Assembly (NCBI RefSeq): GCF_014109765.1 | Contig: NZ_CP059139.1 | Location: 4,220,001 to 4,284,000 of the forward strand | DNA from: Pseudomonas berkeleyensis | GTDB taxonomy: Bacteria > Pseudomonadota > Gammaproteobacteria > Pseudomonadales > Pseudomonadaceae | Length of the DNA: 64,000 bases | Reading direction: 5' to 3' | Made by a program: the position numbers and the translations under genes | Shown: in pieces, positions 42,801 through 59,210 of the stretch | How positions within the stretch are numbered: position 1 is the first letter of the stretch | Layout of the letters: each line of letters starts with the position of its first letter | The notes under the pieces: generated by a model | The model's input: only the letters and a program-made list of their open reading frames with translations | The model's database searches: none | Told to the model about the DNA's origin: nothing

Positions 42801-42815
42801 CTTGAGTCTTTTCGT

Positions 42816-42868
42816 GTAGGGCGGGTGCAACCCGCCACAGGTGATCCGGCGGGTTGCACCCGCCCTAC
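42816..42868. repeat. Dispersed palindromic element, paired inverted copies (second copy)
   Basis: It has the same 21-base inverted arms as the element at 283-335 (42816-42836 and 42848-42868), with an unrelated 11-base spacer. It fills the gap between the yaeQ stop and the recJ start, so any transcript across both genes carries this strong hairpin. Confidence 0.85.
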
Positions 42869-43412: not shown

Positions 43413-43603
43413 GGCGGGCTTCTTGGCTGGTCGAAAGACGGCAAGTCTAACGCGAATCGCCATCTCGATGCCGACGCGCCAATGAACAGGTTGGCAAATG
43501 TCCCGATACGCGGTTGTCAGCCTGACCGGTGATCCGTATAAACCGCAACGCCGGAGCATTCATGATGAATGCCCAAGGGAAAGCACTGCCACAAGGAGGT
43601 TTC

Positions 43604-45358
43604 ATGGAGGCGCTCATCATTGCGGCGATGGTATTTTTCATCATCGTCAGGCTCCTTAACTCGGTCAGCGGCACGGAAGAAGAACTTCACGTGGATGTCT
43701 CAGGCCGCCATGCGCGCATCACGCCCACAGACGCCGCACAAATCAATCGCATCAGCATACTGAGCCTCAGCGCACCGGAGCTGGCCTTGCAGGTCGCCTC
43801 CCGCCTGTGGGGAGATGCCTGGCAAATCGCTCATGTTTCGCTCTGCAGCGTACTGCTGAAGCTGGATAGGGAGGAGGACGCGCTAAAACTGCTCTCACAT
43901 CTCGAAGCGCCCTACGCCCAGAACGCCCTGGTAGAGATGCTGCAGTACCTGCTGGAGAACGGACAGAGGGACAAGGCGCTCGAGATAAAGAATCGCCTGG
44001 GTGCAGATCTCTCCAGCCTACCGCTGCTGCATGCCGAACTGCTGCTGGCCGAGGGAAAAGCAGATGGGGCACGTAGCGTATTGGCTGCCCTGACCCAGGA
44101 TGATCAGCTCGATGCCGACCAACTGATCGCTCTCGCGCGCCTGCAGCAATGCAGCGATATGCCCGATGCCGCGCAGGCGAGCTTTGCCAAGGCTGAAGCT
44201 GCATTAAATACCGAAGAACAGCGCTCGCTTATCGAGTGGCGCCCCTTCATGCAGGCGCTGGCCGAATTTCAGCGCTATCCGGAACTGCTTCAACTCGCCG
44301 AACGGAGCGAGGAAGACAAGCGCTACATCGCGCAGTTGCTATTGGACAAAGGGCAGTACGAGCACACCTTGACCTTGCTGGGCTCCGTCGACTCCGCCGC
44401 CGCTTACCTGCTGGATTACGAAAAGCTGCTCGCTCAATTGCTGCATGACCAGCGCCATGATCTGGCACAACAGCTGTTGCTCAACTCGACCGGAAGCACC
44501 CACTCGATCCTGCTGGAGCACTATCTGGACTGGTATGTCCGGCAAGGCGATACCCGGCAAGCGCAAAAACTGCTGGACGATGAAGCATCGCGTCTGGAGC
44601 CCGCCACGCTCAACTGGCTCATGCTCAACCTGGCGCAGCGCCATTGCGAAAGCCAGCACTATTGGACGGGAGATCTGCTACGCCAGTCGGATCGCCTGGT
44701 GAGCAGTCGCAGAGGACAGCCGGAGTGGCCATTCATGCGCCTGCTCTACCTGCAACACCTGCTAAAAGAGCAAGCCAAGCGCCCCTTGAGCCAGCGCGAT
44801 AGCTGGACGATCCGCAATCATCTGGAAGAAATCGCCAAACTGCACGCCCAACTCGAATTCGACGACGCACTATCCGAGCGCATTCATCACTGTGAATTAC
44901 TGCAGACACTCGGCGAGCCGGAGCAGGCTCGGACACTGGCGAAAGAGATCGAACGACAACTGCGCGATGCGCAGTTCCAGGAAGAAGACGATAGAAGTTT
45001 CTACTGCGATGAATTCGTCACAGTCCTGATCAAGCTTGGCGAGCTGGACACTGCCAGGAAACTGCTTGAGGAAGGCCTGACCAGCGACTGGCAGGAGGCG
45101 CCGTTGCTACAGGCTTATGTCGAAGCAGATCGACTGGAAGAAGCCGTGGAACAGATCAGCTTCAAAACGCTTATCGGGCACGCTGACGCCCCCATAAACG
45201 CGCTACATCAACGTATCGTGCGCCTGGCCGAGCAAGACAAACAACGCAGCCAACACCTGCAGCAGCGCTTGTTCGAGCGCCTGAATGACGACACCACCTG
45301 GAAATCCTGGGGCATGCTTAGCCAAGGTCAGCGCAACGAAACCGAGGCCTCGACCTAG
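43604..45358 (+). CDS. Membrane-anchored TPR-like helical repeat protein
   Basis: A 584-residue protein with one N-terminal membrane helix (MEALIIAAMVFFIIVRLL) and a long alpha-helical repeat region resembling tetratricopeptide or related solenoids (for example REEDALKLLSHLE, LDKGQYEHTLTLLG, LGELDTARKLLEEG), probably cytoplasmic or periplasmic depending on topology. The start is set by an almost perfect ribosome site, AAGGAGGTTTC; ATGs at 43562 and 43565 lack one. It is less GC-rich than its neighbours. It converges on the helicase gene, sharing a CTAG stop tetramer. Protein-interaction scaffold is inferred; no partner is known. Confidence 0.82.
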   Translation: MEALIIAAMVFFIIVRLLNSVSGTEEELHVDVSGRHARITPTDAAQINRISILSLSAPELALQVASRLWGDAWQIAHVSLCSVLLKLDREEDALKLLSHLEAPYAQNALVEMLQYLLENGQRDKALEIKNRLGADLSSLPLLHAELLLAEGKADGARSVLAALTQDDQLDADQLIALARLQQCSDMPDAAQASFAKAEAALNTEEQRSLIEWRPFMQALAEFQRYPELLQLAERSEEDKRYIAQLLLDKGQYEHTLTLLGSVDSAAAYLLDYEKLLAQLLHDQRHDLAQQLLLNSTGSTHSILLEHYLDWYVRQGDTRQAQKLLDDEASRLEPATLNWLMLNLAQRHCESQHYWTGDLLRQSDRLVSSRRGQPEWPFMRLLYLQHLLKEQAKRPLSQRDSWTIRNHLEEIAKLHAQLEFDDALSERIHHCELLQTLGEPEQARTLAKEIERQLRDAQFQEEDDRSFYCDEFVTVLIKLGELDTARKLLEEGLTSDWQEAPLLQAYVEADRLEEAVEQISFKTLIGHADAPINALHQRIVRLAEQDKQRSQHLQQRLFERLNDDTTWKSWGMLSQGQRNETEAST

Positions 45359-48066
45359 AGGCGCGCCAGTAGCGCCTCCAGCGCCTGCTCCGGTGCCTCG
45401 CGCCATAGGCCGTAACTCAGTGGCAGGGTTTCCAACCCTGCCCGCGCCAGCACCAGGTAGCGCTCCAGTTCTAGAAAGCCCTCGCCCTCCCCCGGAAAGC
45501 CGATCAGGTCGATGGCCAGGCACTTGTCGCCGCGCCGGCAAAAGATGTCCAGCACCAACCCGGCCAGCGGGTAGTGATTCCAGGTGGTCACCCCCTGGGC
45601 CTGCAACGCCTCGCACAACTGGCTCCGCGCCGCATCGGTGGCGCCAGGTTGCCAGGCAGCACCCGGTATCTCCAGCGACTCCAAATAGCGACGTAGCAGG
45701 TGCGTGGCGGGCAACTGGCGTTCGTCGCCACTGAACAGCAGCACCTGGCGTTCGCGAGCGCGAGTGATGGCGACGTTGAACAGGTCGGCGCGATTGAGGT
45801 AGGCCGCCGCCTGGCTCGACTCGCGGTCGATGGCGAAGCTGAGGATCATCAGATCGCGCTCTTCGCCCTGGAAGCCATAGGGCGTGTCCACCAGCAGGCG
45901 AAATTCGCGCAGCTGTTCCAGTGGCAGCGTTTCACCGACGCGCTTGCGGATCAGTTCGACCTGATCACGAAACGGCGACAGCACGCCGACACTGGGCTTT
46001 AGCGGGCTGCCACGGTACTCGGCCAGGTGCGCTTCGAGGAGCGCCAGTACCCGCGCAACCTCCACCTCGTTGGCGCCATTGCGCCCACGCTGGCCATCCA
46101 GCCGCTGTAACTGCAGGCTGTCGCAGCCTTGGACGCCGGGACGTTCCTTCATCACCCGCAGGCGGCGGTCGTAGAACATCTCGTTGCTAAAGCGGATCAG
46201 CGCCGGGCGGCTGCGGAAGTGTTCGTCGAGAAACACCACAGCCTCCTGGCTGGCCAACTGCTGGCCGACCAGATCGAGCACGCTGTTGTCGCGGTAACTC
46301 CAGGCCTCGCGTTCCTCGGCCTGCAGACCGGCACGCTGCAACAACTGCACCTCGCGCACGCGGGAGAGGAAGGAGATATGCCGCAGCTGGCGTATGTCAC
46401 CGGTGACCACGGCGCGCTTGCAGCGCTGGAAGGCCGGCAGCGCCGAGGCGATATCGCACTGGGTCGCCTCGTCCATCACCATCACGTCGAACAGCTCGGG
46501 GCGCAGCGGCAGCAGGCGGTGCAACTCGTCCAGCGTCACCACCCAGATCGGGAATGCTGCCAGCAGGCGGGCCGGGTCGATATCCTCGAACAGGGCCAAC
46601 TGGCGCTGCGAGTTGCGCGCGCGGATGGCCTGGTTGTAGCGCACGAACAGCGCACGATCGCTGAGCAGCAGGCGCTTGAGGTTCAGCGCTCGATGGCTGT
46701 TGAGGTGCTCGCGGCTGAGACGCTGACGGCGCTGCTGACAGTAGCGCAGCTCATCGAGCAGCACCCAGGGGCGCACGCTGCTGCCGATGCGCTTGCGCAC
46801 CCAGGGTACCTGCAGCCAGCGCCGCCAGAACGCCAGGCTGCCGCGCTCGGCGCGCAGCAGCAGGCGGCTCCAGCGCACTGCCTGTTCGCACCGTTCACGA
46901 AAATCCGCCGACAGCCGTTGCTCAGCCTGGGTCAGCACCTGCAACTCGCTGCGCTGACGCTCCTCGGCCTGCTCGGAAACGTTCTCGAACTCGCCCTGCA
47001 GCAGGCGCTCCAGGCGCTCACGCAGGGCCTGACGCAAGCTCTGGCCATCGCCTTCGAGCACACCGTCGCGTAGGCCGAAGTCCTCGCGCAGCTTCTGTGC
47101 GATCACCCGTACTGCCTGGGCGCTGCGGCTGACCAGCAGCACGCTCTCACCCTGCAAGTAACGATCCAGCGCCAGCGCCGCCAGGCTGTAGCTCTTGCCG
47201 GTGCCCGGCGGCCCGGAAATCTGGCTGAGGGGATAGCGCGCGGCATTGTCCAGCGCCCGACACTGGGCCGTGCTGAGTTGCGCCGGCAAACGTTGCGGCG
47301 TGCTGGTTGAACCGGCGAGCTGAACCGGCGGTGTCTCACCGAGCAGTTGCAACAGCGCAGGAGATAGATGCGGCGCTTCGTGCAGCAGTTGCAGTTCGTG
47401 GGCGATACCACGGCTGCCGCTGCCACGCGGCACCAACGCAACGAAGGCGCCGGGCAGCAGGCTCAGGCTGCGCCGACGCTGGGCCTGGGCCAGTTCGTCA
47501 GCGCTGGCCAGCGCCGGAAAGCCGGCCGCAGCGGTCACCTCGCGCGCCAGGGTATGACGTTCGACCCAAGCCAGCAGCTCGCCAAGCCCGGCAATATCCA
47601 GTGCCGCCGCCGGTAGCGGCAGGCCGTCGATCTCGCCCCCCTGGCTGTCGTCGAACAGGCGGCGTAGCAGGCGCCAGTTGCCGTGGGCACGCTGCACGTC
47701 GATGCCGAGCAGGTGGCCGTTACCATCCTCGGTGGGTTGCAGGCTGGCCTCGTAGTAGAACAGCGGGCCGCAGATGGCCTGCGAGCCGCCCTGCTCCAGC
47801 TGCAGGCGGCCGCACACTGGCAGCACGCCATAGACCAGTTGCAGCTCGCGCTGATACAGGGCCTGGGCCTCAGCCAGGGCAAGCCCCAGCTCGGCCGACA
47901 GGGGCAGCAGCGGCAGGCTGCCGCTGACCAGCTCTTCACGCCCATCGAGCCAGGCCCAGCGCTGGGCCGGCAGCTTGCCCAGGTTGTCCAGATCCAGGTC
48001 GCGGCTGTCGGCCAGGTAGCAACTACGGTAGAAGCCGATCAGCTGGCGGGCGTGTTGGTCGCTCAT
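45355..48066 (-). CDS. Superfamily 1 (UPF1-like) helicase with possible C-terminal nuclease-like domain
   Basis: A 903-residue protein. The helicase core shows Walker A GPPGTGKS (about residue 285), Q-motif-side LSTAQCRALDNA, motif II DEAT (VMDEATQCDIASA), motif III (VVTGDIRQL), motif V-type DTPYGFQGEERDLMILSF and motif VI FNVAITRARERQVLLFSG, placing it in the UPF1/AAA_11-AAA_12 group. A roughly 260-residue N-terminal region is unassigned. The last 90 residues (YPLAGLVLDIFCRRGDKCLAIDLIGF) resemble the core of a DUF559/Vsr-like PD-(D/E)XK fold: an Asp then IDL after a lysine; this is tentative. It is the last gene of the block, with its ATG overlapping the PLD gene's TGA by one base. Confidence 0.88.
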   Translation of the reverse strand: MSDQHARQLIGFYRSCYLADSRDLDLDNLGKLPAQRWAWLDGREELVSGSLPLLPLSAELGLALAEAQALYQRELQLVYGVLPVCGRLQLEQGGSQAICGPLFYYEASLQPTEDGNGHLLGIDVQRAHGNWRLLRRLFDDSQGGEIDGLPLPAAALDIAGLGELLAWVERHTLAREVTAAAGFPALASADELAQAQRRRSLSLLPGAFVALVPRGSGSRGIAHELQLLHEAPHLSPALLQLLGETPPVQLAGSTSTPQRLPAQLSTAQCRALDNAARYPLSQISGPPGTGKSYSLAALALDRYLQGESVLLVSRSAQAVRVIAQKLREDFGLRDGVLEGDGQSLRQALRERLERLLQGEFENVSEQAEERQRSELQVLTQAEQRLSADFRERCEQAVRWSRLLLRAERGSLAFWRRWLQVPWVRKRIGSSVRPWVLLDELRYCQQRRQRLSREHLNSHRALNLKRLLLSDRALFVRYNQAIRARNSQRQLALFEDIDPARLLAAFPIWVVTLDELHRLLPLRPELFDVMVMDEATQCDIASALPAFQRCKRAVVTGDIRQLRHISFLSRVREVQLLQRAGLQAEEREAWSYRDNSVLDLVGQQLASQEAVVFLDEHFRSRPALIRFSNEMFYDRRLRVMKERPGVQGCDSLQLQRLDGQRGRNGANEVEVARVLALLEAHLAEYRGSPLKPSVGVLSPFRDQVELIRKRVGETLPLEQLREFRLLVDTPYGFQGEERDLMILSFAIDRESSQAAAYLNRADLFNVAITRARERQVLLFSGDERQLPATHLLRRYLESLEIPGAAWQPGATDAARSQLCEALQAQGVTTWNHYPLAGLVLDIFCRRGDKCLAIDLIGFPGEGEGFLELERYLVLARAGLETLPLSYGLWREAPEQALEALLARL

Positions 48067-48752
48067 CAGTTACCTGCGTAACGCGCCCAGAGCTTGTCGA
48101 ATTCGCGGCGATATTCGGCCACCAGATGCGGGTCATCGGTCACCAGCAGGTTTTCCTCGTTGCTGGTACTGGCGCTGCGCGTCCAGTTGAAACTGCCGTT
48201 GAGCAGCAGGCGGCCATCGAACAGGGCGAACTTGTGGTGCATGTGGAACGGGCTGTTGTCGATGCGCAGTGGCACGCCCTGCTCGACCAGGTGCTGGATG
48301 TCGCTACCAGCATCGAAACGCTTTTCGCTGTCGCTGATGATGCGCACGGCGATACCGCGACGGTGCACGGCGATCAACTCGTCGCTGAGCTGGTTGTCGG
48401 AGATGGTGTAGACGCAGACATCCACCGATTCCCTGGCCTGGCGGCACAGGTCGCGAATGCGCTGGCGGCAGCTCTCGCCAGGACTGAAGTGCGCGCTGCT
48501 ATGGCCGCGAATCGGCGAGCAACGTACCTCCAGGGTCTTGATCACCTGCTCCAGCCACTTCAGGGCGGACATGGCGTCCTCGGGGTTCTGGATCAACTCA
48601 CGCACCAGGGCGAAGGCGCGGTTGCGCATGTAGCGCACCTGATCGGGGCTCAGGTCATTGCCCAGCTCGCGCAGCTCGTCGCGTTCCTCGTTACTCAGGC
48701 GCAGGTCGGCCAGGCTGTCGCGCAGGTGCTGGTCGAGTCGGTTGAAATCCAT
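48066..48752 (-). CDS. Single-HKD phospholipase D-like nuclease
   Basis: A 228-residue protein. The N-terminal 75 residues are helical (NEERDELRELGNDLSPDQV). The catalytic half has one HKD motif, His172-x-Lys174-x4-Asp179 (HHKFALFDG), followed by NGSFNWT, the pattern of Nuc and mitochondrial PLD/Zucchini-type enzymes that act as homodimers on nucleic acid. No signal peptide is seen, so it is cytoplasmic and unlikely to act on bulk phospholipid. The stop and the helicase start overlap (TGATG), and the rhomboid gene ends 15 bases upstream. Confidence 0.9.
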   Translation of the reverse strand: MDFNRLDQHLRDSLADLRLSNEERDELRELGNDLSPDQVRYMRNRAFALVRELIQNPEDAMSALKWLEQVIKTLEVRCSPIRGHSSAHFSPGESCRQRIRDLCRQARESVDVCVYTISDNQLSDELIAVHRRGIAVRIISDSEKRFDAGSDIQHLVEQGVPLRIDNSPFHMHHKFALFDGRLLLNGSFNWTRSASTSNEENLLVTDDPHLVAEYRREFDKLWARYAGN

Positions 48753-48767
48753 GCAAATTCCCTTTCG

Positions 48768-49316
48768 TCATTGATTGCGGCGGCGACTCAATGCGGCATA
48801 GAGCACGCCACTGAAGGCACCGGCCAGATGGTACTCGAAGGAGACGCCAGCGCGTGGCAGCAGGCCGAAGAACCAGCCGCCGTAGAGGAAGAACACCAGC
48901 ACGGCCAGCAGCAGGTCGAGCAAGCTGCGCTCGAACCAGGCCCGTGCCAGCAGCAGCCCCCAGAAGCCGAACAACCAGCCACTGGCGCCGACGTGCAGGC
49001 CGGTACGACCGAACAGCCAGACCAGCGCACCGCTGAGCAGGATGATAAAGGCACTGGATCGGAAGAAGTCACGGCGCGAGCGCAGCAGCACCAGGCTGCC
49101 GAGCACCAGCAGGCCACTGAGGTTGCTGAGCAGATGCGCCCAGCTGCCATGCAGCCAGGGCGCGAGAAGAATGCCGGGTAGCGCCTCGATATGCCGGGGC
49201 AGCAAGCCCCAGACGTTCAAGGCGCCGCCAAGGGCGCCATTGACCACTTGCACCAGCAGCATCGCGCCGCTGATCACCAACAGCGGGCGAAGCTCGGTCA
49301 GCCAGCCTCGCCTCAC
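48768..49316 (-). CDS. Rhomboid-family intramembrane serine protease
   Basis: A 182-residue protein with six hydrophobic segments. The rhomboid serine motif GASG (Ser112, LHVGASGWLFGFWG) and the partner His163 (EYHLAGAFSG) form the catalytic dyad, and the oxyanion-side HLLSN (His61, Asn65) is present, so it is predicted active. It is a minimal rhomboid with no extra domain. Its start overlaps the stop of the giant ATPase by four bases (ATGA), so it is translationally coupled to it. Cleavage of a membrane protein within this module is possible but unproved. Confidence 0.9.
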   Translation of the reverse strand: MRRGWLTELRPLLVISGAMLLVQVVNGALGGALNVWGLLPRHIEALPGILLAPWLHGSWAHLLSNLSGLLVLGSLVLLRSRRDFFRSSAFIILLSGALVWLFGRTGLHVGASGWLFGFWGLLLARAWFERSLLDLLLAVLVFFLYGGWFFGLLPRAGVSFEYHLAGAFSGVLYAALSRRRNQ

Positions 49317-52300
49317 GGCGCCTCGTCATCCACGATGTCGCTACGCTGCTCCTGTCCAAGCAGCGTTCCCAGGTCACGCAGTTGGGTGGAGATTTCCAAC
49401 ATGCGGTTGTGGGTGCGCAGGTCGATATCGATCTTCTTGTCCATCGCCTTGATCAGCGGCAGGAAGCTGTTCTGCAGGCTGTCGGCCAGGTTCTCCAGCA
49501 ACTTCTGCGTGCCCGGCTGCGGCGGCGCGACCACCTCCACCTGCGGGCGCAGCTTGCCCAGATTGTCCAGACCAGCCAGCAGTTGCTCCCAGGGAATGCT
49601 CGGCGTCTCGCTGGCCGGCTTGCCGGCGCCCAGACCGCGTACACCTTCGACCAGGTCGACCAGTTGCGCCACCACGCGGCCACCAACATCGCTGTCGCTG
49701 CCGCCCATGGCCTTGTTGCGCATGAAGTCGCGCTTGATCTGCGCCCAGCGCTCGACCTGCTCCGGAGTCTGATTGCCGCGCAGCTCGGCGAGCTTGAGCA
49801 GGTTCTCCTCGGCGCCGGTAGTGAGCAACTGCGACTCGCCCTGGTAGTGGTCGGCAATCAGTTGCAGCAGTTCGGCGTCGTTCATCACCGAACTGATCTT
49901 CTCGGCCATCTTGTTCATGTTGCGGTAGCTGCCCTGCAGCTTGAACGGCGGCTCGGTACGGTATGTATCCGCCTGCGCGGCGCTGACGATGTACTGCTGG
50001 TTGACCCGACCGACCACGTCGCGCACCTGCATCAGGCGCTGCAGAGTCGAGGTGATCTCGTTGATCTCGGCGGCGCTGTAGGTGTGCGACAGCTCATTGG
50101 CGGAGAACGGCTTGCCCTCAGCCTTGGCGACGAAGCGGTAAACATCCGCCATATCGCGGGTGGCCAGCGGCGCCAGCACCGGGTTGGAGGTCAGACTGTT
50201 CTCGATGTAGGACAGCGCGAAGGCTTCCTGCATGCCGCCCAGGGTGTCGCCGAGGTTGTAGATGTCGGCGCGGTTGGCGAGCATGTCGGGGATCTTGAAC
50301 ACGTCTCCGGACTCGGTGTACGGGTTGCCACTCATCACCACGCAGAACTTCTTGCCGCGCATGTCGTAGGTCTTGGTGCGGCCCTTCCACACGCCCTCGA
50401 TGCGCCGTGTGCCGTCGCACAGCGAGATGAATTTCTGCAGGAACTCGGGATGGGTGTGCTGGATGTCGTCGACATAGAGCATCACGTTGTTGCCCATCTC
50501 CAGCGCCAGATTGAGCTTTTCCAGCTCCTGGCGCGAAGTGGCGTCCGGCGCCTGCGCCGGGTCAATGGAACGCACCTCGTGGCCCAATGCCGGGCCGTTG
50601 ATCTTCATGAAGATCAAGCCCAGGCGGTGCGCCACGTACTCCATCAGTGTGGTCTTGCCGTAGCCGGGCGGCGAGATGAGCATCAACAGCCCCATCAGGT
50701 CGGTGCGCTTGTTCTCGCCGGCGGTGCCCATCTGCTTGGCTAGGTTGTCGCCGATAAAGCCCAGGTACACGTCGTTGATCAGCTTGTTACGCACGAACGA
50801 CGACAGCGGTCGCGGCTTGAACTCGCTCAGGCGCAGGGCCTGGCGCTCGCGGTTGATCACGTCCTGGCGCAGCGCCTGGTAGCGCTGCAACTGCGGCACG
50901 AAGTGACCGCGGTGCTGTTCGAGGCGGGCGAAGTAGTCATCGATGGCCAATACCAGCGCGCCGTCCTGCACACGCGGATGGTCGCCGAGCAATCCGCTGA
51001 CGGCAAAGCGCAGATCGACCTCGGTGAAGCGCCGCGCAAATTCATCGTCCAGCAGGCTGATGGCCACGGCTTCGGGAATGTACTCGACCAGCTCAGCCAA
51101 CGCCTCGTCCTGCGCACAGAGGCCATCGAACCAAGTCTGCGCCAGCGACCAACGCTGCACTGGGCGCCCGCGCAGGTTGTCCAGCGCCTCACGGTAGTCG
51201 TCCCAAATATGGCTGGTTTGCATGCGCTGCTGCAGGCTGTCGAGCAGTTGCCGCGCGTACTTGCTGAAGGTGAACTCGATGGGCTTGGCTGCCAGTTCTT
51301 CGACCAGATAGGCCGCAGCTGCCTGGCGCTGCGAGGCATCGATCGGTAGCGGGTTCTGCGCGAGGAAACGCTGCATCGCCGCATCGATCTCTTCCCGCAG
51401 GCGCAGCACACCATTCTCGCTGCCGAACATCTGCCGCAGGTGCAGGCTGCTGCGCGCTCGCTCGGGCCACAGCTCGGCCTCGATATCCTGTCCCCAGCGG
51501 TTCCAGAACAGCGCGGCGAAGCCACGGGAGGCCGGTGCATAACGCAGCAGCCCGGCGCTTTCGCGCAGCGGCAGCAACTGGATCAGGATCAGCGCAGCAT
51601 CATGGTCGTGGATGCCTTTCTCGTAGGCATCCTTGTAACGCGGCGCGGCAAAATCACGAATCAGCCGGGTCAGGTCATCCGGCTGCGCCAGGTGGGTCTT
51701 GAGCAAGTCCAGGGTCAGGCCTTCACGCCCGCCGAGTGCGGCGTCCAGCACCAGCCCGGCGAGGTATTCGGCGCGGTACAGCGATGGCGATTCGGACTCC
51801 AGCGAGACCTGCCAATAGTCGCGCAGGCCCTCCAGGGTTTCGTCGCGCAGCGGTTCGAGAAAATCGGTGCCGGTCAGGTGCAGATACAGCGCATCGCCAC
51901 GCGGCATCAGAGTCAGATCGAGTTCCTGGGTGTTGACGCTGAAGCGGTGGCGCGGGCCGAGCTTGATGACGTTGCCGCCCTCTTCGAACAGCTCGCTCTT
52001 GTCGCGCAAAGCGCGTACGGCCTGGTCGCGGGCGGCCTTCAGGCGTGCCTCGACGTCATCGGCCTTGACGCTGTCCTTGAGCTCGCGCAGGCGCTCGGCC
52101 ATTTCGCGCAACTTGAGGATCAACGGATCCGCGGCGAAGAAGGCGTTGAGCTCCTCCATCTGGGTCAGGCGTGCGGTACGCCGGCCGAGGCTGTCGAGGA
52201 TACGCTGGGCGGCGTCGAGCACACCCTGGGCACGGCGCTGACGCTCGTCGAGCAGGCTCTGCTTGTGCGCCTCGAAGGTTTCCAGCAACTCTTCACGCTT

Positions 52301-54550
52301 GCCGAGGATGTCGCTGAGGAACTGTTCCTGATCGCCGAACTGGCTTTCCAGCTCTTCCAGCTGCACCAGCAGGCGCGACAGCTGCTCGTCGCACTTCTCC
52401 GGATCCTGCGCCAGTGCCAGGGCGTTGGTGATGCCCTGGCCGAACAGTTTGAACTGGGCGCCGAACTGCGCCACGGTCTCGGCCGAACCCAGGCCCTTGC
52501 GCCGTTGCTCGGCGCGCGCCTTGGCCTGGTTGAGACGGGCGTAGACCTCGGAAATCGACTCGACGATACGCGTGCGCTGGGTGGCATCGTCGATCTTCAG
52601 CGAGGCCATCAGGCTCGACAGCATGTCGAGGTTGCCGGCCATCTCCTGCATCTCGACCAGCGGCTCGTTGAGCTGGGTGACGGTCTCGGCCTTCTGCGCC
52701 AGAGTGTCCAGCTCGCCGAGGCGCTGCACATAGGGTTGCAGCGCCGCATCGCTGGCGAGGAAAGCCGAGGTGGCAGTGGCCACGCGCTCCTGCGCGTCGA
52801 GCAGTTCGGTTTCCATGGCGTCGATGCGCGCCACGTCGATATAGCGGTAGTCGCGGATGGTCAGCAGTTGGCCGCGCTGCGCGGTGATGGCGTTGAGCGC
52901 CTCGACGAAGTGCTGCACCTCGTCCCAGCTGTCGACCAGCAGACCCGAGAGCAGGCTCTTCTGCCGCGACTCGGCCTCGGCCATGGCCCGGCTGGACTGC
53001 TGCCGAATGCTCTCGACCTTCTCGAACTCGTCGAGCACCAGCTCGGAAGTGGCGGCCACTTCGCGCAGCAGCGGCGCCAGCTCAGCGCACTGGGCGTCGC
53101 CCAGCCAGTGGTAGATGTCGAACAGGCGGCGGGTGTTCTGGCACAGCTGGGTGTAGCGCGCCACCGATACTTCGCGGCTGTCGATCTCGCGGCTGAGGTT
53201 GAGCAGGTCGGATACGCCACGTACCAGCTCGGCGTTGCCGATGCGCCCGAAGAAGCCACTGCGCGCCGGCTGGCGGGCAGCGTAGTCCTCGCTCTCGAAC
53301 GGCGTCTGCCAGATCTGCATCGGGTGGATACGGGTCGGCTCGCTGCCCTCGGCGGAGAAGATCACCATGCGCCCGTCTTCCAGGCGCGCGTAGCCATGGC
53401 CGAAGATCGGGTTGTGCAACTGGCGGTTGATCATGTTGTAGGTGAACAGCGCCGCGCGGCCTTCTTCCGGGTGGTAGAAGATGTACTGCACGTCTTCGCC
53501 GTTGGGCGAGCGCACCGAGCGCTTGAAACGCATGCCGACCATCGACTGCTCGAAGGTCTTGTGCTCGCCGTTCTGCAGGTAGTAGCCGCCCGGGAAGATG
53601 ATGCCGTGGTCTTCCGGCAGCTGCACGCAGGCCAGGCCGATGGCGTCGATACGCTCGACCTGGCGGGTCAGGCTGTTGAATACCAGGTAGCGCCACTGCT
53701 CCTCACGGTACGGCAGCACCTTGAGCAGGATCAGGCTGCCCAGACGGGCATATTCGATCTGTGCGTCGTCCAGCGACTGGGTCTTGTCCACCACCGCCTC
53801 GCGGTAGATGCCCTGGCCGTCCTGGGTGTTGTTCTCGACCTTGATGGTCAGGTCGCCGCCGACGGTCTCGACGAACACGGTGTCGAGGATGTTCATGTGC
53901 GGATGGCGGCCCATGACCACCATCTCGCGGGTGGTCTTCTGCCACTCGAAGTCGAACGGCGCCGGCAGCGCGATATCGCGCTCGCCGCGGTTGTCGATGT
54001 AGCGGACGTCCTTGCCGTCGGTGGAGATCGACCAGCGGAACACGCGGATATCGGTGATTCGCTCGCCGATCTGGAAACTCGCCAGCAGCTTGCCGTCACG
54101 AATGGCCAACTGCAGCAAACGGGTGTTCTTGTAGTAGGTGTACAGCTCGTTGAAGTCGGCGACGAAGCTGGCCTGGGCCAGGAAGCTGCCCTCCAGCGGC
54201 ACCGACTCGGCCTCGTAGCCTTCGGCGTTCTCCACCAGACGGTAGAGGGAGAACACGTCGGCGACGTGGGTTTCCTTCTTCAGGCCAATGAACACGTTGT
54301 AGCCGAACAGCAGGCACTCGCCGACCTGGACGATATCGCGGGCGATGCAGTTGTTCTCGGTGCGGATACGCACCCGGCCGATGGCCTCCATGTGACTACT
54401 GCCGAACTCGGCCAGGCGCTGGCCATTGAGCGCCTCGGTCAGGCCGCGCAGGCGCTGGCCCTGCTCCTGCAAGCGCCGGTGCAGCACCTCGTAGGCACCA
54501 CCTTCGGCGACGGCCTTGTCCAATACGTCCTGTGTTTGTTCGTCCGACAT
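49313..54550 (-). CDS. Giant coiled-coil AAA ATPase ('DNA repair ATPase' type)
   Basis: A 1745-residue protein. The first 450 residues are beta-rich, with repeated short strands suggesting a propeller-like region (GRHPHMNILDTVFVE, FGHGYARLEDGRMVIFS). A long helical, coiled-coil region follows (about 480-870, with SRAMAEAESRQKSLL and RARAEQRRKG-type heptads), then a helical region, then an AAA ATPase: Walker A PPGYGKTTL (Gly1298, Lys1299), Walker B VMLYVDDIQH (Asp1361, Asp1362), and sensor-1-type VVMSGNPYTESGDVF. Databases commonly label such proteins DNA repair ATPase; I know of no experimental proof. P. aeruginosa PA3728 is the likely counterpart. It lies in the same direction as yqiK and the TerB-like gene upstream, and overlaps the rhomboid gene downstream. 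Confidence 0.9.
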   Translation of the reverse strand: MSDEQTQDVLDKAVAEGGAYEVLHRRLQEQGQRLRGLTEALNGQRLAEFGSSHMEAIGRVRIRTENNCIARDIVQVGECLLFGYNVFIGLKKETHVADVFSLYRLVENAEGYEAESVPLEGSFLAQASFVADFNELYTYYKNTRLLQLAIRDGKLLASFQIGERITDIRVFRWSISTDGKDVRYIDNRGERDIALPAPFDFEWQKTTREMVVMGRHPHMNILDTVFVETVGGDLTIKVENNTQDGQGIYREAVVDKTQSLDDAQIEYARLGSLILLKVLPYREEQWRYLVFNSLTRQVERIDAIGLACVQLPEDHGIIFPGGYYLQNGEHKTFEQSMVGMRFKRSVRSPNGEDVQYIFYHPEEGRAALFTYNMINRQLHNPIFGHGYARLEDGRMVIFSAEGSEPTRIHPMQIWQTPFESEDYAARQPARSGFFGRIGNAELVRGVSDLLNLSREIDSREVSVARYTQLCQNTRRLFDIYHWLGDAQCAELAPLLREVAATSELVLDEFEKVESIRQQSSRAMAEAESRQKSLLSGLLVDSWDEVQHFVEALNAITAQRGQLLTIRDYRYIDVARIDAMETELLDAQERVATATSAFLASDAALQPYVQRLGELDTLAQKAETVTQLNEPLVEMQEMAGNLDMLSSLMASLKIDDATQRTRIVESISEVYARLNQAKARAEQRRKGLGSAETVAQFGAQFKLFGQGITNALALAQDPEKCDEQLSRLLVQLEELESQFGDQEQFLSDILGKREELLETFEAHKQSLLDERQRRAQGVLDAAQRILDSLGRRTARLTQMEELNAFFAADPLILKLREMAERLRELKDSVKADDVEARLKAARDQAVRALRDKSELFEEGGNVIKLGPRHRFSVNTQELDLTLMPRGDALYLHLTGTDFLEPLRDETLEGLRDYWQVSLESESPSLYRAEYLAGLVLDAALGGREGLTLDLLKTHLAQPDDLTRLIRDFAAPRYKDAYEKGIHDHDAALILIQLLPLRESAGLLRYAPASRGFAALFWNRWGQDIEAELWPERARSSLHLRQMFGSENGVLRLREEIDAAMQRFLAQNPLPIDASQRQAAAAYLVEELAAKPIEFTFSKYARQLLDSLQQRMQTSHIWDDYREALDNLRGRPVQRWSLAQTWFDGLCAQDEALAELVEYIPEAVAISLLDDEFARRFTEVDLRFAVSGLLGDHPRVQDGALVLAIDDYFARLEQHRGHFVPQLQRYQALRQDVINRERQALRLSEFKPRPLSSFVRNKLINDVYLGFIGDNLAKQMGTAGENKRTDLMGLLMLISPPGYGKTTLMEYVAHRLGLIFMKINGPALGHEVRSIDPAQAPDATSRQELEKLNLALEMGNNVMLYVDDIQHTHPEFLQKFISLCDGTRRIEGVWKGRTKTYDMRGKKFCVVMSGNPYTESGDVFKIPDMLANRADIYNLGDTLGGMQEAFALSYIENSLTSNPVLAPLATRDMADVYRFVAKAEGKPFSANELSHTYSAAEINEITSTLQRLMQVRDVVGRVNQQYIVSAAQADTYRTEPPFKLQGSYRNMNKMAEKISSVMNDAELLQLIADHYQGESQLLTTGAEENLLKLAELRGNQTPEQVERWAQIKRDFMRNKAMGGSDSDVGGRVVAQLVDLVEGVRGLGAGKPASETPSIPWEQLLAGLDNLGKLRPQVEVVAPPQPGTQKLLENLADSLQNSFLPLIKAMDKKIDIDLRTHNRMLEISTQLRDLGTLLGQEQRSDIVDDEAP

Positions 54551-54656
54551 CGTGTTCTTCCTGAAATCTTCGCCTGCGGGCCAGCGAGGCCCGATGGGAG
54601 CGGGTTCTTGATCGGTTGTGGCGGGTCAGGTGGGCAAGGCTGGCGCCAGGGCCAAC

Positions 54657-54896
54657 CTACGCACCGATCTTCTTCTCGATCTTGGCGATCTTGTCACGCA
54701 GCGGCTGGTCGATTTCCTCGGGCCGCACCTGGGCGATGATCTTCTTCAGCACCCGTACTTCGTTATCGTCGATCACCCCATCACGCTCGGCGATCTCCAG
54801 CAGCGCTTTCAGCTCCTGGGCATCGAGACGCCCGTCATTGCTGAAGCACTGAATCGAGCGGAAGGTCATCTCCAGATAGTCTCTTGATTCAGACAT
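54657..54896 (-). CDS. Small TerB-like helical protein
   Basis: A 79-residue acidic/basic helical protein (MSESRDYLEMTFRSIQCFSN at the start). The middle, DGRLDAQELKALLEIAERDGVIDDNEVRVLKKII, has two Asp-rich turns between helices as in TerB-like domains (metal-binding helical bundle found beside membrane-stress and tellurite-resistance genes); it also resembles an EF-hand pair. The ribosome site CAGGAGAGCTC precedes the ATG. It is 106 bases before the giant ATPase start and 160 bases after yqiK. Confidence 0.82.
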   Translation of the reverse strand: MSESRDYLEMTFRSIQCFSNDGRLDAQELKALLEIAERDGVIDDNEVRVLKKIIAQVRPEEIDQPLRDKIAKIEKKIGA

Positions 54897-54984
54897 GCAT
54901 GAGCTCTCCTGAGTGAGCGAATGGTCTGCAGCAGCCGGCTTGCCGGCGATTCTGATAGTCAGACCACTCGAGCGGCTCGCTGTG

Positions 54985-55045
54985 GTGGGCTGAAGCCCAC
55001 CCTACGAACGGTTTACCGTCACTCCCGTGAAAGCGGGAGTGACGG
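54985..55045. repeat. Two consecutive palindromes between yqiK and the TerB-like gene
   Basis: The first is GTGGGCT-GA-AGCCCAC (54985-55000) followed by CCTACG, a member of the GTAGGG family in inverse orientation. The second is a 12-bp perfect stem CCGTCACTCCCG, loop TGAAAG, CGGGAGTGACGG (55016-55045), a typical Pseudomonas REP-like unit. Being in a co-directional gene gap of an otherwise tight block, they may separate the yqiK transcript from the downstream genes or stabilise it. Confidence 0.75.
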
Positions 55046-55057
55046 CTATTTCACGCT

Positions 55058-57094
55058 CTATGCCTGCTCAACGTCCGGCTGCGCCGGCTTGGCCTCCGGC
55101 ACACGCCCCTGCAACAGACGCGACAGCACGTCCTGCACCACCGGGCTCTTGCCGACCACGCCCTCGATGGCCTTGCCCACCGACAGCGACTTGGCGAAGG
55201 AGTTGAAGAAGTCGCCCTCGCCGCCGACGATCTCGATCTTCGCCTTGGCCAGCGCGGTAGCCAACACCTCGGCCTGATCCTTGGCGATTTCCTTGTTCGC
55301 GGCGATGGCGGCCATGGCCTCCTCGAAGCTCTTCTCCAACTGCATGCGGAACTCTTCGTGCTGACGAGCATTGTCGCTGAGCGCGTCGAGAGCACCGAAC
55401 TTCTTGCCCAGACCTTCTGCCTCGGCGTTCAGACGCTCCAGCAGCACCTGGGCTTCGGCCATACCCAGATCCTGGGTGGCCTTGGCCTTGGCAGTACCGA
55501 GCTGCTCTTCGCCGCGAGCCTGGGCGCCGAGTTTTTCTTCCAACACCTTGGCGTCGGCCAGACCATCCTTTTCCTTGGCGGCAGCCTGCGCTTCGATCAC
55601 GCGGGCCTGGGCCAGACCTTTCTCCTGCTCGCCCTTGGCTTCGGCGATCAGACGCTCGGCCTGCACGCGAGCCTCGGCCAGACCTTCCTTCTCTTTCGCC
55701 GCGGCGGTGACTTCACGCACCCGCGCATCGGCCAGGCCCGGCGCGGCGCGCTCGGCTTCGATACCTTCGGCCAGTTTCTTCTTGGCCTCGGCACTCTTGG
55801 CTGCGGCTTCCAGCTCGGCCTGGGCCAGGTTGTTGATTTCCACTGCCTTGTGCTTGGAACGGGTTTCGTCGGCTTCGGCCTGCTTGACCTGGCGCACCAG
55901 CTCCTGCTCGGCTTCGGCCTGGGCGTTGAGCACGGTGACCTGCTTCAAACGCTCGGCCTCGGACACTTCACGCACTTCCTTGATGCGCTCTTCTTCCTGC
56001 GCCACGGTCTTCTCGACCGCAACACGCTCGCGCACCACGGCGGCGATGTTCTTGCGCTCTTCTTCAAGCGCCTTTTCCTTCTCGATGCGCTGCAGTTCGA
56101 CCTCGCGCTCGCGGGAGACCACTTCCAGATCCTTGGCGCGGGTGACTTTCTCCACTTCGATGACCACGGCACGCTGGCGGTTCTGCTGGGCCACCTCCAC
56201 TTCGCGCTGGTGGTTCTCAGCACGGATATCCAGTTCCTGCTGGGTCTGGATGCGTGCCTGCTCGGCCTTGAGGCGCTCTTCCTCACGCACCTTGAGGGTT
56301 TCCGCTTCCTCACGGGCACGGATGGTCTCGATCTCACGCTTCTGGCGCGCCTCGGCATCAGCCTGCTGACGCTCAAGCGACAGGGTCGCCTCGCGGGTTT
56401 CGACGTTCTTCTTCTTGATCGCCAGCTCTTCGTTGCGCTCCAGTTCGTTGGTGATGACGTTCTGTGCGGCGGTCAGCTCGGTGATCTTGCGGATACCCTC
56501 GGCGTCGAGGATGTTGCTCGGATCCAGGGAAGCCTTGGAGGTCTGCTCCAGGTAATCGATGGCCACGTCTTCGAGCACGTAACCATTGAGGTCGTTGCCG
56601 ATCACTTCGACGATGCGATCACGGAAGTCCTGGCGATTCTCGAACAGCTCGACGAAGTCGAACTGCTTACCGACGGTCTTCAGCGCTTCGGAGAACTTGG
56701 CGTTGAACAGCTCGTTGACCGCGCCGCGGTCGGAGGCTCGCTCGACGCCGATGGCCTTGGCCACCTTGAGCACGTCTTCCTGGGTTTCGTTGACGCGCAG
56801 GTAGAAGGCCACGGTGATGTCGGCGCGCATGTTGTCGCGGCAGATCAGACCGTCCTTGGCGCGGCGGTCGACCTCCAGGGTGATCAGGGAGATCTTCATG
56901 AACTCCTTGAGGTGGATCACCGGGTACACCAGCGAGCCGGTGAAGTGCACCTTGGGCGTCGAACTCATGTCGTTGACGATCAGCGCGGTGCCTTGCGGAA
57001 CCTTGATGTAGAAGGCCTTGAACAGGGCGATCAAGGCAATCACGAAGAGGACGACCAGCCCTGCCCCGACGATGAAGGGAATCAGGTTTTCCAT
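55058..57094 (-). CDS. yqiK: Flotillin-like SPFH/Band 7 membrane protein (YqiK-type)
   Basis: A 678-residue flotillin. An N-terminal membrane helix (residues 5-27) is followed by an SPFH/Band 7 domain (about 28-210, VPQGTALIVNDM and VDRRAKDGLICRDNMRADI). A very long Glu/Ala/Lys/Arg coiled coil spans about 215-590 and includes imperfect tandem repeats of the type AAKEKEGLAEARVQAE. A Gly-containing C-terminal segment (GGEGDFFNSFAKSLSVGKA) follows. It resembles E. coli YqiK; yqiJ lies 83 bases upstream as in E. coli. Such proteins organise membrane microdomains. It is longer than classical flotillins, mostly in the coiled coil. Confidence 0.92.
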   Translation of the reverse strand: MENLIPFIVGAGLVVLFVIALIALFKAFYIKVPQGTALIVNDMSSTPKVHFTGSLVYPVIHLKEFMKISLITLEVDRRAKDGLICRDNMRADITVAFYLRVNETQEDVLKVAKAIGVERASDRGAVNELFNAKFSEALKTVGKQFDFVELFENRQDFRDRIVEVIGNDLNGYVLEDVAIDYLEQTSKASLDPSNILDAEGIRKITELTAAQNVITNELERNEELAIKKKNVETREATLSLERQQADAEARQKREIETIRAREEAETLKVREEERLKAEQARIQTQQELDIRAENHQREVEVAQQNRQRAVVIEVEKVTRAKDLEVVSREREVELQRIEKEKALEEERKNIAAVVRERVAVEKTVAQEEERIKEVREVSEAERLKQVTVLNAQAEAEQELVRQVKQAEADETRSKHKAVEINNLAQAELEAAAKSAEAKKKLAEGIEAERAAPGLADARVREVTAAAKEKEGLAEARVQAERLIAEAKGEQEKGLAQARVIEAQAAAKEKDGLADAKVLEEKLGAQARGEEQLGTAKAKATQDLGMAEAQVLLERLNAEAEGLGKKFGALDALSDNARQHEEFRMQLEKSFEEAMAAIAANKEIAKDQAEVLATALAKAKIEIVGGEGDFFNSFAKSLSVGKAIEGVVGKSPVVQDVLSRLLQGRVPEAKPAQPDVEQA

Positions 57095-57177
57095 TACAGC
57101 TTTACTCCTTTGCTAATTGTGCAGGCAGGTTCGGCAATGCCTAGCGTGCCAGCCCTCTGTTACGTACGGATTGTCGG

Positions 57178-57819
57178 CTAGACGCCTCGAAACTCTTCTT
57201 CGGTGATGACCCGGTAGGCATGCTCGGCGGCCAGGTATTCCAGCAGCACCACGCGGTCGCCACGCTTGAAGCCCGATGCCTCATCGGCGCGAACCCGCAG
57301 GATCAGACCAGCGCCGCCATCCTCCAGCACCGCTTCGCCATGGCTGGCCGTGACGCGACCACTGCGAACGACGGCCACCTGACCCAGCACCGACTTGCTG
57401 CTGATCGCTTCGACCTTGTGAAACAGCGGGCGCAGCGGTCGGCAGATTACCGCACACAGTGGCGCAGCCAGGACGAAGGCGCCGGCGATGACCAGCAACC
57501 CAAGCGGATAGCGCAAGATTCCCAGCGGCAGGTGACGCAGCAACCAAAGCTCGATGAAGTAGCAGACGAACCAGGCGAAGAAGAACAGCAACGTCAGCAC
57601 CAGTGTGACCGGCACGCCGTCGAGCTTGAACTTGTAGAGCAGGCCAGCGAGCCCTTCGGTCTGGCCGCTGCCTTCCATCATCGAGTCGGCCTCGACGTCG
57701 AGCAGGTCGACTTCGAGCAAGCCGGCCGCAACGACCAACCAGTAGATGACCGCCACGCACAGCAGGAAGCTGTAGATGGCAGTGGGAAATGACAGCGAAG
57801 TCTGCAGGAAGAGTTCCAT
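57178..57819 (-). CDS. yqiJ: YqiJ-type membrane protein with OB-fold (NfeD-like)
   Basis: A 213-residue inner-membrane protein with hydrophobic segments at about 10-35, 70-95 and 105-128, and a C-terminal soluble OB-fold domain (about 140-205, LGQVAVVRSGRVTASHGEAV), matching the YqiJ/NfeD1b partner of flotillins. NfeD-like proteins are habitually encoded next to SPFH proteins and bind them. It lies between pspA and yqiK. A GC hairpin stands just before its ribosome-binding region. Confidence 0.9.
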   Translation of the reverse strand: MELFLQTSLSFPTAIYSFLLCVAVIYWLVVAAGLLEVDLLDVEADSMMEGSGQTEGLAGLLYKFKLDGVPVTLVLTLLFFFAWFVCYFIELWLLRHLPLGILRYPLGLLVIAGAFVLAAPLCAVICRPLRPLFHKVEAISSKSVLGQVAVVRSGRVTASHGEAVLEDGGAGLILRVRADEASGFKRGDRVVLLEYLAAEHAYRVITEEEFRGV

Positions 57820-57843
57820 TTTTTCCTTTCCCGAATCAGGGAA

Positions 57844-57863
57844 ACGGGGCGCGAACGCCCCGT
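57844..57863. promoter_or_regulatory. Hairpin between pspA and yqiJ
   Basis: An 8-bp stem ACGGGGCG, loop CGAA, CGCCCCGT is followed on the minus strand by TTTCCC only. It may be a partial terminator or a processing/stabilising element lowering yqiJK expression relative to yjfI-pspA. Confidence 0.5.
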
Positions 57864-57879
57864 GTTATTCACAGCGAGG

Positions 57880-58575
57880 TCAGGACTTGGACTTGTCCTT
57901 CAGGCGTGCCAGCACACTGTCCGCACTGGCGTTGTCGGCCTTGATGCCAGCAGCACGCAGCTTGGCTTCCAGCGAATCATCCGGCGCGCTGGTGGCAGCC
58001 AGTTCGGCCGAAGCCTCCATCTTCGCCGCGCGCTCGGCCTGCTTCTGCTTGATGCGCTCGAGCGACTCGACCGCCGTCTGCAACTTGGCCTGCGAACCAC
58101 CATAGCGCTGTGCTACGGCCATCTGCGCCTTCTGCACGCTTTCGGTGGCCTTGACCGTATCCACCTGCTGCTTGAGGCGCTTGATGTTGCCCTCGGCCTG
58201 GGTCACGGCCTTGCGCAGTTGCGCCACGCTGGCGGCGAAACCCTCGGCCTGTTCACGCTCGCTGGCCTGCTCGACTTCCAGGTTGGCGATCTTCTCGGCG
58301 ACTTCCTTGGCCAAGGTTTCGTTGCCCGCATCCAGCGCCTTGAGCGCGTACTGTTCGTACTCGGCGATGCTCGCCGCGCTCTTGTTGGCCTTGTCGCTGG
58401 CCAGCTTCTGCTTGGCCATGATCTCGGCCAGGGCTTCCTTAGACTTGCGCAGCTCGACATCGGCGTCGCGGATTTCCTGATCGAGGATACGCAGGGCCTG
58501 GCTATCGACCACTGCCTCACCCACTTCGTTGGCACCGCCACGCAGCGCCGTCAGCAATTTGCTCCAGACATTCAT
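57880..58575 (-). CDS. PspA/IM30 family membrane-remodelling protein (YjfJ-like)
   Basis: A 231-residue protein, nearly all helical, of the PspA/Vipp1 family, bacterial relatives of ESCRT-III. It begins MNVWSKLLTALRGGANEVGE, the amphipathic helix that docks to stressed membranes, then has the long coiled-coil hairpin (about 30-170). The C-terminal domain (KLRAAGIKADNASADSVLARLK) is the shorter one seen in the YjfJ branch rather than classical PspA. No pspF or pspBC lies nearby, so control differs from the classical Psp response. yjfI lies 14 bases upstream. Confidence 0.92.
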   Translation of the reverse strand: MNVWSKLLTALRGGANEVGEAVVDSQALRILDQEIRDADVELRKSKEALAEIMAKQKLASDKANKSAASIAEYEQYALKALDAGNETLAKEVAEKIANLEVEQASEREQAEGFAASVAQLRKAVTQAEGNIKRLKQQVDTVKATESVQKAQMAVAQRYGGSQAKLQTAVESLERIKQKQAERAAKMEASAELAATSAPDDSLEAKLRAAGIKADNASADSVLARLKDKSKS

Positions 58576-58589
58576 CGTCTTATCTCCTC

Positions 58590-59210
58590 TCAGGCGCTGG
58601 TCTTGAGGAAGCCTTCATAGGCTTCGGTGGCCTTGATCACGTTGTCCGCCAGCAGTTCGATCTCGAACACCACGTCGGACAGTGTCGACGACGAGCTAAG
58701 CGCGCCGAACATGATGTAGCTATCGCTACCGTCGGCCGAGCGTTCCAGGCCGATGGACGACAGCGGAAACAGCTTGTGGGTACGCAGCACTTCTTCGTTG
58801 AACGCGGCGATATCCGTGACATCGGCAGCCGGCCAGAGCAGCGCCTCGACGACGATCTGCTCACCGAATACGGCGATGAACAACGGCAGCTCGCCGTACT
58901 CGCGCATGGTGACATGCAAACTGGCATCGGCACCCTGAAGCAATTCGATGCCGGCCTGCCCGCTTTGGAACAGTTCCGTTGCCGCCAACGCTTCACTCAG
59001 CGCCTGGGCGGTCCAAACCTGCGGCATGCTCATACCTTCCTCCTTTTCCATCGAAGCCAGCGACAACTGAGGCTGGCGCAGTTTGCGCTCGAACGCGAGC
59101 AACAGCGGCGCGTGCTCGGGCAAGATCCAGACTTCCTTCTTCACCAACCCCTGCTCCCGCAGGCGCTGACGATAAAGACGCTGGTAATGGGCTGATGATT
59201 TATTGTCCAT
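58590..59210 (-). CDS. DUF2170 protein (YjfI-like)
   Basis: A 206-residue protein. Residues about 65-200 form the DUF2170 domain (PLFIAVFGEQIVVEALLWP, SYIMFGALSSSSTLSDVVFE), the family encoded next to pspA-like yjfJ in E. coli. Residues 1-55 are a basic, Arg-rich extension (HYQRLYRQRLREQGLVKKEV) that looks like a possible ribbon-helix-helix-type DNA-binding element; this is my reading, not a known property. It is the first gene of the block and sits directly behind a tandem palindrome, so autoregulation is conceivable. Confidence 0.85.
   Translation of the reverse strand: MDNKSSAHYQRLYRQRLREQGLVKKEVWILPEHAPLLLAFERKLRQPQLSLASMEKEEGMSMPQVWTAQALSEALAATELFQSGQAGIELLQGADASLHVTMREYGELPLFIAVFGEQIVVEALLWPAADVTDIAAFNEEVLRTHKLFPLSSIGLERSADGSDSYIMFGALSSSSTLSDVVFEIELLADNVIKATEAYEGFLKTSA

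Follow-up and report, generated by a model that had tools for sequence, protein, structure and literature searches.

A nine-gene block at positions 45355–59210 of the 64,000-nucleotide stretch of Pseudomonas berkeleyensis DNA analysed here (the window; host genome 5.65 Mb in one contig) appears to contain and extend the bac operon of Pseudomonas aeruginosa (bacABCDEF, PA3732-PA3728 / PA14_16140-16200). PA3729-PA3732 were named bac (biofilm-associated cluster) in 2008 (PMC2587700). In 2024, six genes, bacA-bacF, were reported to be co-transcribed in PA14 by reverse transcription–polymerase chain reaction, together with a crystal structure of BacA and the effects of a bacA mutation on biofilm and swarming (PMC10948618); across both papers the published phenotypes are biofilm, rhamnolipids, swarming and osmotic shock. 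PA3728-PA3732 were also listed in 2025 among 17 genes upregulated in every phage-infected PAO1 sample, the infections being with JG024 alone or with JG005 and sampled at 8 and 24 min (PMC12041424), and a paper about isolates from cystic fibrosis lists PA3728 in a table, with the count 3 (PMC8190622).

Two further bodies of work bear on the block. A 2024 survey (Ravi et al., PMC11237479) describes the same operon class, CesT/Tir-PspA with band-7/flotillin, YqiJ and a novel AAA+ ATPase with coiled coils and a beta-propeller, and reports that a PLD-superfamily (HKD) hydrolase is added to this core in some Proteobacteria. CoCoNuT systems are predicted to target RNA; their helicase CnuH has a Vsr-like nuclease fused to it or a PLD protein as partner (PMC11090510). 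The bac core rises under phage infection and affects biofilm, and no enzyme output for it was found in the papers examined.

A proposed extended bac operon

Our preferred reading, to which we give an even chance of being correct, is that the block represents a lengthened version of the bac envelope-stress operon, in which a PLD-family enzyme is the effector and a few lineages add a helicase arm. An open reading frame (ORF) check bears out the nine same-strand genes of an earlier note on this DNA in their order, lengths, coordinates and overlaps. The first six match bacA-bacF: DUF2170, PspA, YqiJ, flotillin-like, small gene and DUF3686 ATPase follow one another on one strand in the P. aeruginosa order. 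The earlier note had called PA3728-PA3732 uncharacterised, a description overtaken by the bac papers (PMC2587700, PMC10948618). As published, the operon has six genes, and the available text does not name the rhomboid, PLD, helicase and TPR genes that we describe below.

All nine genes lie on the minus strand. The bacA homologue (58590–59210, 206 residues), a DUF2170 protein (YjfI / CesT-Tir-like; Pfam E 5e-51), scores 345.8 bits against the BacA equivalog NF050185 of NCBIfam (cut-off 300). The bacB homologue (57880–58575, 231 residues) belongs to the PspA/IM30 family (Pfam PspA_IM30, E 2e-55) and is the sole PspA_IM30 match in the host genome at E 0.001; PspB, PspC and PspF domains of the Escherichia coli Psp type were found in none of the nine proteins, the set to which that search was confined. 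The bacC homologue (57178–57819, 213 residues), a putative YqiJ/YuaF-like membrane protein, is assigned by position, hydrophobic segments and the published operon; it aligns with 17 relatives at 36–67% identity. The bacD homologue (55058–57094, 678 residues) is a flotillin-like SPFH/Band_7 coiled-coil protein with one N-terminal hydrophobic segment; Band_7 was missed in the full-length Pfam scan and found with the N-terminus alone (E 1e-8). A TerB-like protein of 79 residues (54657–54896) occupies the bacE position, and the bacF homologue (49313–54550, 1745 residues) combines DUF3686, a coiled coil/DUF7902 region and a C-terminal AAA+ domain.

Three genes follow. The rhomboid intramembrane serine protease gene (48768–49316, 182 residues, GTG start; Pfam Rhomboid E 1.7e-19) overlaps the ATPase gene by 4 bases; 15 bases separate it from the gene for a single-HKD PLD-family phosphodiesterase whose N-terminal domain looks helical (48066–48752, 228 residues; PLDc_2 E 3e-31). 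The PLD gene shares 1 base with the gene for a superfamily 1B (SF1B), UPF1-like helicase with a long helical insertion and a predicted nuclease-fold C-terminus (45355–48066, 903 residues; AAA_11/AAA_12). Most gene labels of the earlier note are backed by Pfam matches above cut-off (DUF2170, PspA_IM30, DUF3686, DUF7902, AAA, Rhomboid, PLDc_2 and AAA_11/AAA_12). Less secure are TerB, which falls below cut-off (E 0.022) and ranks under several EF-hand models, and YqiJ, for which the Pfam scan gave no useful match.

A PLD enzyme found, in the genus sample, only beside the ATPase

Two comparisons tie the PLD gene to the core. First, we counted DUF3686 in a genus sample and a phylum sample of 398 genomes each, and the PLD subfamily (at E 1e-20) in the genus sample, with the window's own genome included in the tallies. 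DUF3686 is present over its Pfam cut-off in 43 of the 398 genus-sample genomes, plus one fragment below cut-off, in 8 of the 398 genomes of the phylum and in 9 of 57 relatives. The PLD subfamily occurs in 36 genus-sample genomes, all of them among the 43, and always on the same contig and within 6 kb of the ATPase gene (hypergeometric P = 1.6e-44). We rejected adjacency by chance, given linkage in 36/36.

Second, we compared 80 named loci, the best of at least 583 confirmed, a sample that leans to close relatives and shares some genomes with the other samples. They were split by hand into 28 Pseudomonas-type loci (including Halopseudomonas, Stutzerimonas and one metagenome-assembled genome titled Gammaproteobacteria) and 52 others. 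The contig has 4 kb downstream in 27/28 and 43/52, respectively; because some contigs stop inside the region, absences are upper limits. PLD is found in 25/28 Pseudomonas-type and 13/52 other loci, the rhomboid in 21/28 and 12/52 (in one of the latter it is encoded on the opposite strand) and TerB-like homologues, at varying positions, in 20/28 and 8/52. Cellvibrio, Pragia and Limnobaculum loci carry PLD and rhomboid, Providencia carries the rhomboid only and Lysobacter PLD only, at a distance of 2 kb in some loci. Rhomboid linkage extends beyond Pseudomonas to several families. An orthologue of the PLD with 69% identity is present in P. aeruginosa among the 120 of 2326 matches listed. Within the core, yqiJ, flotillin-like and ATPase genes cluster in all of the first 15 other DUF3686 loci compared, a grouping that is more than chance.

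The PLD gene has also exchanged alleles. In 14 near relatives the flotillin-like, ATPase, rhomboid and YqiJ proteins share 89–99% identity with those of the window, but the PLD shares 75–77%; at five other loci, three of them in near relatives (L150, L112, L146), the PLD identity is 88–92%. Two PLD alleles thus circulate. DNA identity places the switch between them inside the PLD gene (7 of 9 rows were usable; L105 and L021 were not).

The earlier note had regarded the coupling of the nucleic-acid enzymes to this set as undescribed. For PLD the addition is already reported in PMC11237479; the main text of that paper gives 0 hits for rhomboid, helicase and TerB. As far as our literature search shows, the rhomboid and helicase linkage, the strictness of the PLD linkage and the TPR neighbour are new. 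This strict PLD–ATPase linkage offers a single testable effector.

Catalytic family of the PLD enzyme and the rhomboid

The PLD protein carries one HKD motif (residues 172–179), and its single domain is close to MitoPLD/Zucchini-type enzymes. Among solved chains, mitochondrial cardiolipin hydrolases come nearest to it (best E 4.6e-28), followed at a distance by the endonuclease Nuc (4.8e-13) and NucT (2.3e-9). In NCBIfam, NucT nucleases rank first, below cut-offs, and in PADLOC the matches are DrmC, DpdK, MkoC and MkoB. The label 'nuclease' given to this protein in the earlier note is therefore not established, its nearest solved relatives being cardiolipin hydrolases. MitoPLD/Zucchini-type PLDs are anchored by a transmembrane segment at the N-terminus and hold zinc through four Cys/His ligands. 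In the window's protein, no N-terminal transmembrane segment was found at the hydrophobicity threshold used, and a search for a pre-catalytic four-ligand Cys/His site left one Cys alone invariant in the 23 relatives aligned. The N-terminal 75 residues weakly resemble the TerB-like protein (hhalign probability 48, E 1.8e-4, in one comparison).

The rhomboid retains the GxSG serine and the C-terminal His in 23/23 aligned rows. Against the rhombosortase model TIGR03902 it scores 32.7 bits, below the cut-off of 84. We consider it a candidate regulator of the machine.

An optional helicase after the PLD gene

High-identity helicase matches occur in 14 of the 398 genus-sample genomes, 12 full-length and 2 with the core deleted; weak partial matches in 16 further genomes were taken for other SF1 helicases. 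Among 7997 candidates scored, distant helicase homologues include those of Corallincola and Thaumasiovibrio. All 14 carry both ATPase and PLD (P = 3.4e-15 against the ATPase). In 10 of them (8 full-length, 2 truncated) the helicase gene is linked, each time directly after PLD. Within the best 80 loci, helicase sequence is present in 8/28 Pseudomonas-type loci (6 full-length, one in two frames and one truncated) and in 1/52 others. Most linked copies belong to the P. mendocina group; the others are in P. alcaligenes and in Motilimonas sp. E26, the last with a helicase of 36% identity and the order YqiJ, flotillin-like, ATPase, PLD, helicase. The earlier note had named confinement of the added genes to a handful of close strains as the outcome that would speak against it. 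For the helicase this is partly the case: apart from two outlying lineages, it is linked mostly within a single species group. PLD and rhomboid both recur in other loci.

We also searched the 49 ATPase-bearing genomes reached through the named loci, P. alcaligenes and Motilimonas included. Six match a model of the helicase family at E 1e-50. Four match the whole model, among them P. alcaligenes in two pieces and, outside the bac loci, P. argentinensis and P. daroniae; the other two match only its second half, in proteins of more than 1500 residues. The truncated helicase of two genus-sample genomes (G611, G493) retains residues 1–135 and 787 onward, and the helicase pieces of P. chengduensis have the same ends.

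Helicases following PLD fall in three separated branches of the helicase tree. This tree requires the linked label to change 3 times, but its branches are long and the context is unclear for 14 of its 34 rows. Chance adjacency is unlikely, as linkage after PLD recurs in Motilimonas, at 36% identity, and in P. alcaligenes. A single ancient linkage with later relocation explains the pattern as well as repeated gain does. The helicase is thus an optional addition, placed after PLD in every linked case seen, and helicase-bearing lineages permit comparison with helicase-free ones.

Some individual copies show further features. In P. alcaligenes, the helicase after PLD is split in two frames (L149:16241-19011), which may be real or a sequencing error. 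The remnants at L074, L075 and L173 have lost the same internal part of the motor core and kept both ends. The standalone helicases at L070-L073 adjoin, as read by eye, a patatin-like protein and a HexR-like regulator; window-type PLD gave no match at these four loci.

This distribution bears on a rival account in which the machine acts on lipid only: PLD would be a cardiolipin/phosphatidyl hydrolase editing the membrane beneath PspA/flotillin assemblies, and the helicase an unrelated 3′ passenger. We regard this account as possible but somewhat unlikely. It would explain why cardiolipin hydrolases outrank Nuc and NucT as nearest solved relatives, why 26 of the 36 PLD genomes have no linked helicase and why the helicase is internally deleted in three genomes and unlinked in four. 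MitoPLD-type enzymes, however, have also been described as nucleases, so that sequence cannot decide the point; NCBIfam puts the NucT nucleases first, if below cut-off; and chance poorly explains a helicase after PLD in three tree branches.

Likeness of the helicase–PLD pair to defence systems

The helicase was modelled with a predicted local distance difference test score of 87.5, and its nearest folds are senataxin (Setx), Sen1 and UPF1. Motifs lie at 285, 532, 733 and 768, and long helices at 365–482 separate the P-loop (285) from motif II DEAT (532). In the model, the C-terminal 90 residues follow the helix/strand order of the restriction-nuclease fold. MTES_1575 is detected in 16/26 family members and, at E 0.01, not in the window's own protein; in a check for PD-(D/E)XK residues, D840 and D853 were invariant and no K was present two residues after D853.

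Among described systems, Type III CoCoNuT comes close in its UPF1-like helicase, long helical insertion and PLD partner, and probably in the nuclease-fold C-terminus (PMC11090510), and the window's helicase has the large helical insertion after Walker A that marks CnuH. CoCoNuT differs in having an NxD McrB GTPase and McrC, neither of which is found among the window's nine proteins, to which this search was limited; in addition, the window's PLD has one HKD motif rather than two, and no winged helix-turn-helix domain was found over cut-off. PMC11090510 gives 0 hits for flotillin, rhomboid or PspA. Helicase and PLD each resemble part of MkoC of Mokosh type II, the best PADLOC match of the helicase (E 1.5e-43). 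In Mokosh type II a single protein combines helicase and PLD, an arrangement that fits the span of the PADLOC model, whereas the window has separate genes, PLD and then helicase.

These resemblances raise the prospect of an anti-phage module, in which the helicase would sense or load foreign nucleic acid, PLD and the nuclease-fold C-terminus of the helicase would destroy it, and the membrane platform would tether both. We think this unlikely, even with the PADLOC matches of helicase (MkoC) and PLD (DrmC, DpdK, MkoC, MkoB), the similarity of UPF1-like fold, helical insertion and MTES_1575 to CnuH with its Vsr fusion (PMC11090510), the induction of the core by phage (PMC12041424), the exchange of PLD alleles and the patchiness of the helicase. 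The PADLOC matches span only part of the models, and the anti-phage models of NCBIfam fall well short of their cut-offs; neither McrB nor McrC domains occur among the nine proteins; the flanks are core genes (recJ, yaeQ, thrC, hom) and not a defence island; and data on phage protection were not found in the literature.

The giant ATPase

The bacF homologue scores 692.7 bits against DUF3686, with further matches to DUF7902 and AAA_5, and is 93–96% identical to its counterparts in P. composti, P. toyotomiensis, P. alcaliphila, P. chengduensis, P. mendocina and P. khazarica among the best 80 loci, which suggests that the host genome belongs to this group. In a structural comparison of the modelled AAA+ domain, MoxR rows (NorQ, CbbQ) lead the VIA list by a small margin. 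Counting against the assignment, the best MoxR row stands ~2 Z over the best dynein/ClpA row and the lowest MoxR rows tie with these; Foldseek alone puts RuvB and Clp rows first. The protein probably carries a MoxR-like AAA+ ring, according to this model. It differs from MoxR-family proteins such as NorQ and CbbQ in placing the AAA+ domain on a 1745-residue protein with DUF3686 and DUF7902, and no VWA domain is listed among the window's nine proteins. The earlier note had suggested that the ATPase may act on PspA/flotillin assemblies, as AAA ATPases remodel ESCRT-III filaments; the model lends no support to a Vps4/ESCRT-III analogy, no Vps4 row appearing among the 50 shown.

The Pfam description of DUF3686 as an ATPase involved in DNA repair, and a recJ-type gene nearby (41091–42830), could point to a set in which the ATPase, RecJ, a PLD nuclease and the helicase mend DNA at the envelope. 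We hold this to be highly improbable. The recJ gene lies outside the block, past yaeQ and the TPR gene, and the published bac phenotypes are biofilm, rhamnolipids, swarming and osmotic shock (PMC10948618, PMC2587700); we found neither the test behind the Pfam label nor a paper with the term DUF3686.

A proposed function of the extension

From these comparisons we infer how an extended bac operon might work. Envelope damage, phage attack included, would switch the operon on; PspA, the SPFH protein and YqiJ would assemble at the inner membrane; and the giant ATPase would build or turn over the PspA/SPFH polymers. The rhomboid may cleave a membrane protein of the set as a control. PLD would be the effector, brought to the site perhaps via its TerB-like N-terminus, and would hydrolyse a phosphodiester there, in cardiolipin or in nucleic acid. 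Where present, the helicase–PLD pair may act on nucleic acid entering at, or located at, the damaged membrane. Two elements of the earlier note are supported: the placing of enzymes together with membrane-stress genes, and a phage connection, the latter by the rise of PA3728-PA3732 in all phage-infected PAO1 samples. The PLD substrate, cardiolipin or nucleic acid, would tell membrane editing from defence.

Several observations weigh against the extended-operon reading. The co-occurrence P values given above are uncorrected for kinship. Seven of the 43 ATPase genomes have no PLD, so the core can do without it. Within ATPase genomes, the association of helicase given PLD reaches only P = 0.048; the helicase stands alone elsewhere in four genomes, all of one sister clade, and close relatives lack it or carry an internally deleted copy. 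The phage induction in P. aeruginosa concerns the core and not the extension (PMC12041424), and our literature search found no experiment on the rhomboid, PLD or helicase gene. Finally, a sigma54 site upstream of bacA is unsupported in the window: the best candidate scores 8/11 at -220, shuffles of 89 upstream regions score 8 or more in 384 of 1780 cases, and no consistent site emerged.

A bolder version would make the block a phage-inducible PspA/flotillin operon that has acquired an arm of UPF1-like helicase and PLD nuclease, such as otherwise occurs in predicted RNA-targeting defence systems. Invading nucleic acid would be attacked at the damaged inner membrane, with the MoxR-like ATPase and the rhomboid coupling damage to nuclease release. 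This is speculative and, in our judgement, distinctly unlikely; if true, it would be a membrane-tethered defence that doubles as an envelope-repair system.

Flanking genes

Beyond the helicase end of the block lie the TPR gene, yaeQ and the recJ-type gene, and beyond the bacA end a CoA-transferase gene, the threonine synthase gene (thrC) and the homoserine dehydrogenase gene (hom). An Rfam scan of the window gave 0 matches and a sigma70 promoter search found 0; predicted terminators number 10 against 9.5 in shuffles, which is background level.

The convergent TPR gene (43529–45358, plus strand), which the earlier note does not mention, overlaps the stop of the helicase gene and encodes a putative TPR-type protein of 609 residues with one N-terminal hydrophobic segment and weak TPR_14/TPR_4 matches below cut-off. 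As a fixed flank by which to locate an empty site, it failed, being present in 0/12 ATPase-lacking genomes (a subset of the 31 below). We searched for it in 33 of the 43 ATPase genomes and in 31 ATPase-lacking ones; it is present in 13/33 and 0/31, respectively, uncorrected for kinship. The protein diverges fast (27–42% identity), and distant copies may therefore be missed. All 20 places with a match to the TPR gene adjoin the cluster, and one genome carries as many as three copies in tandem.

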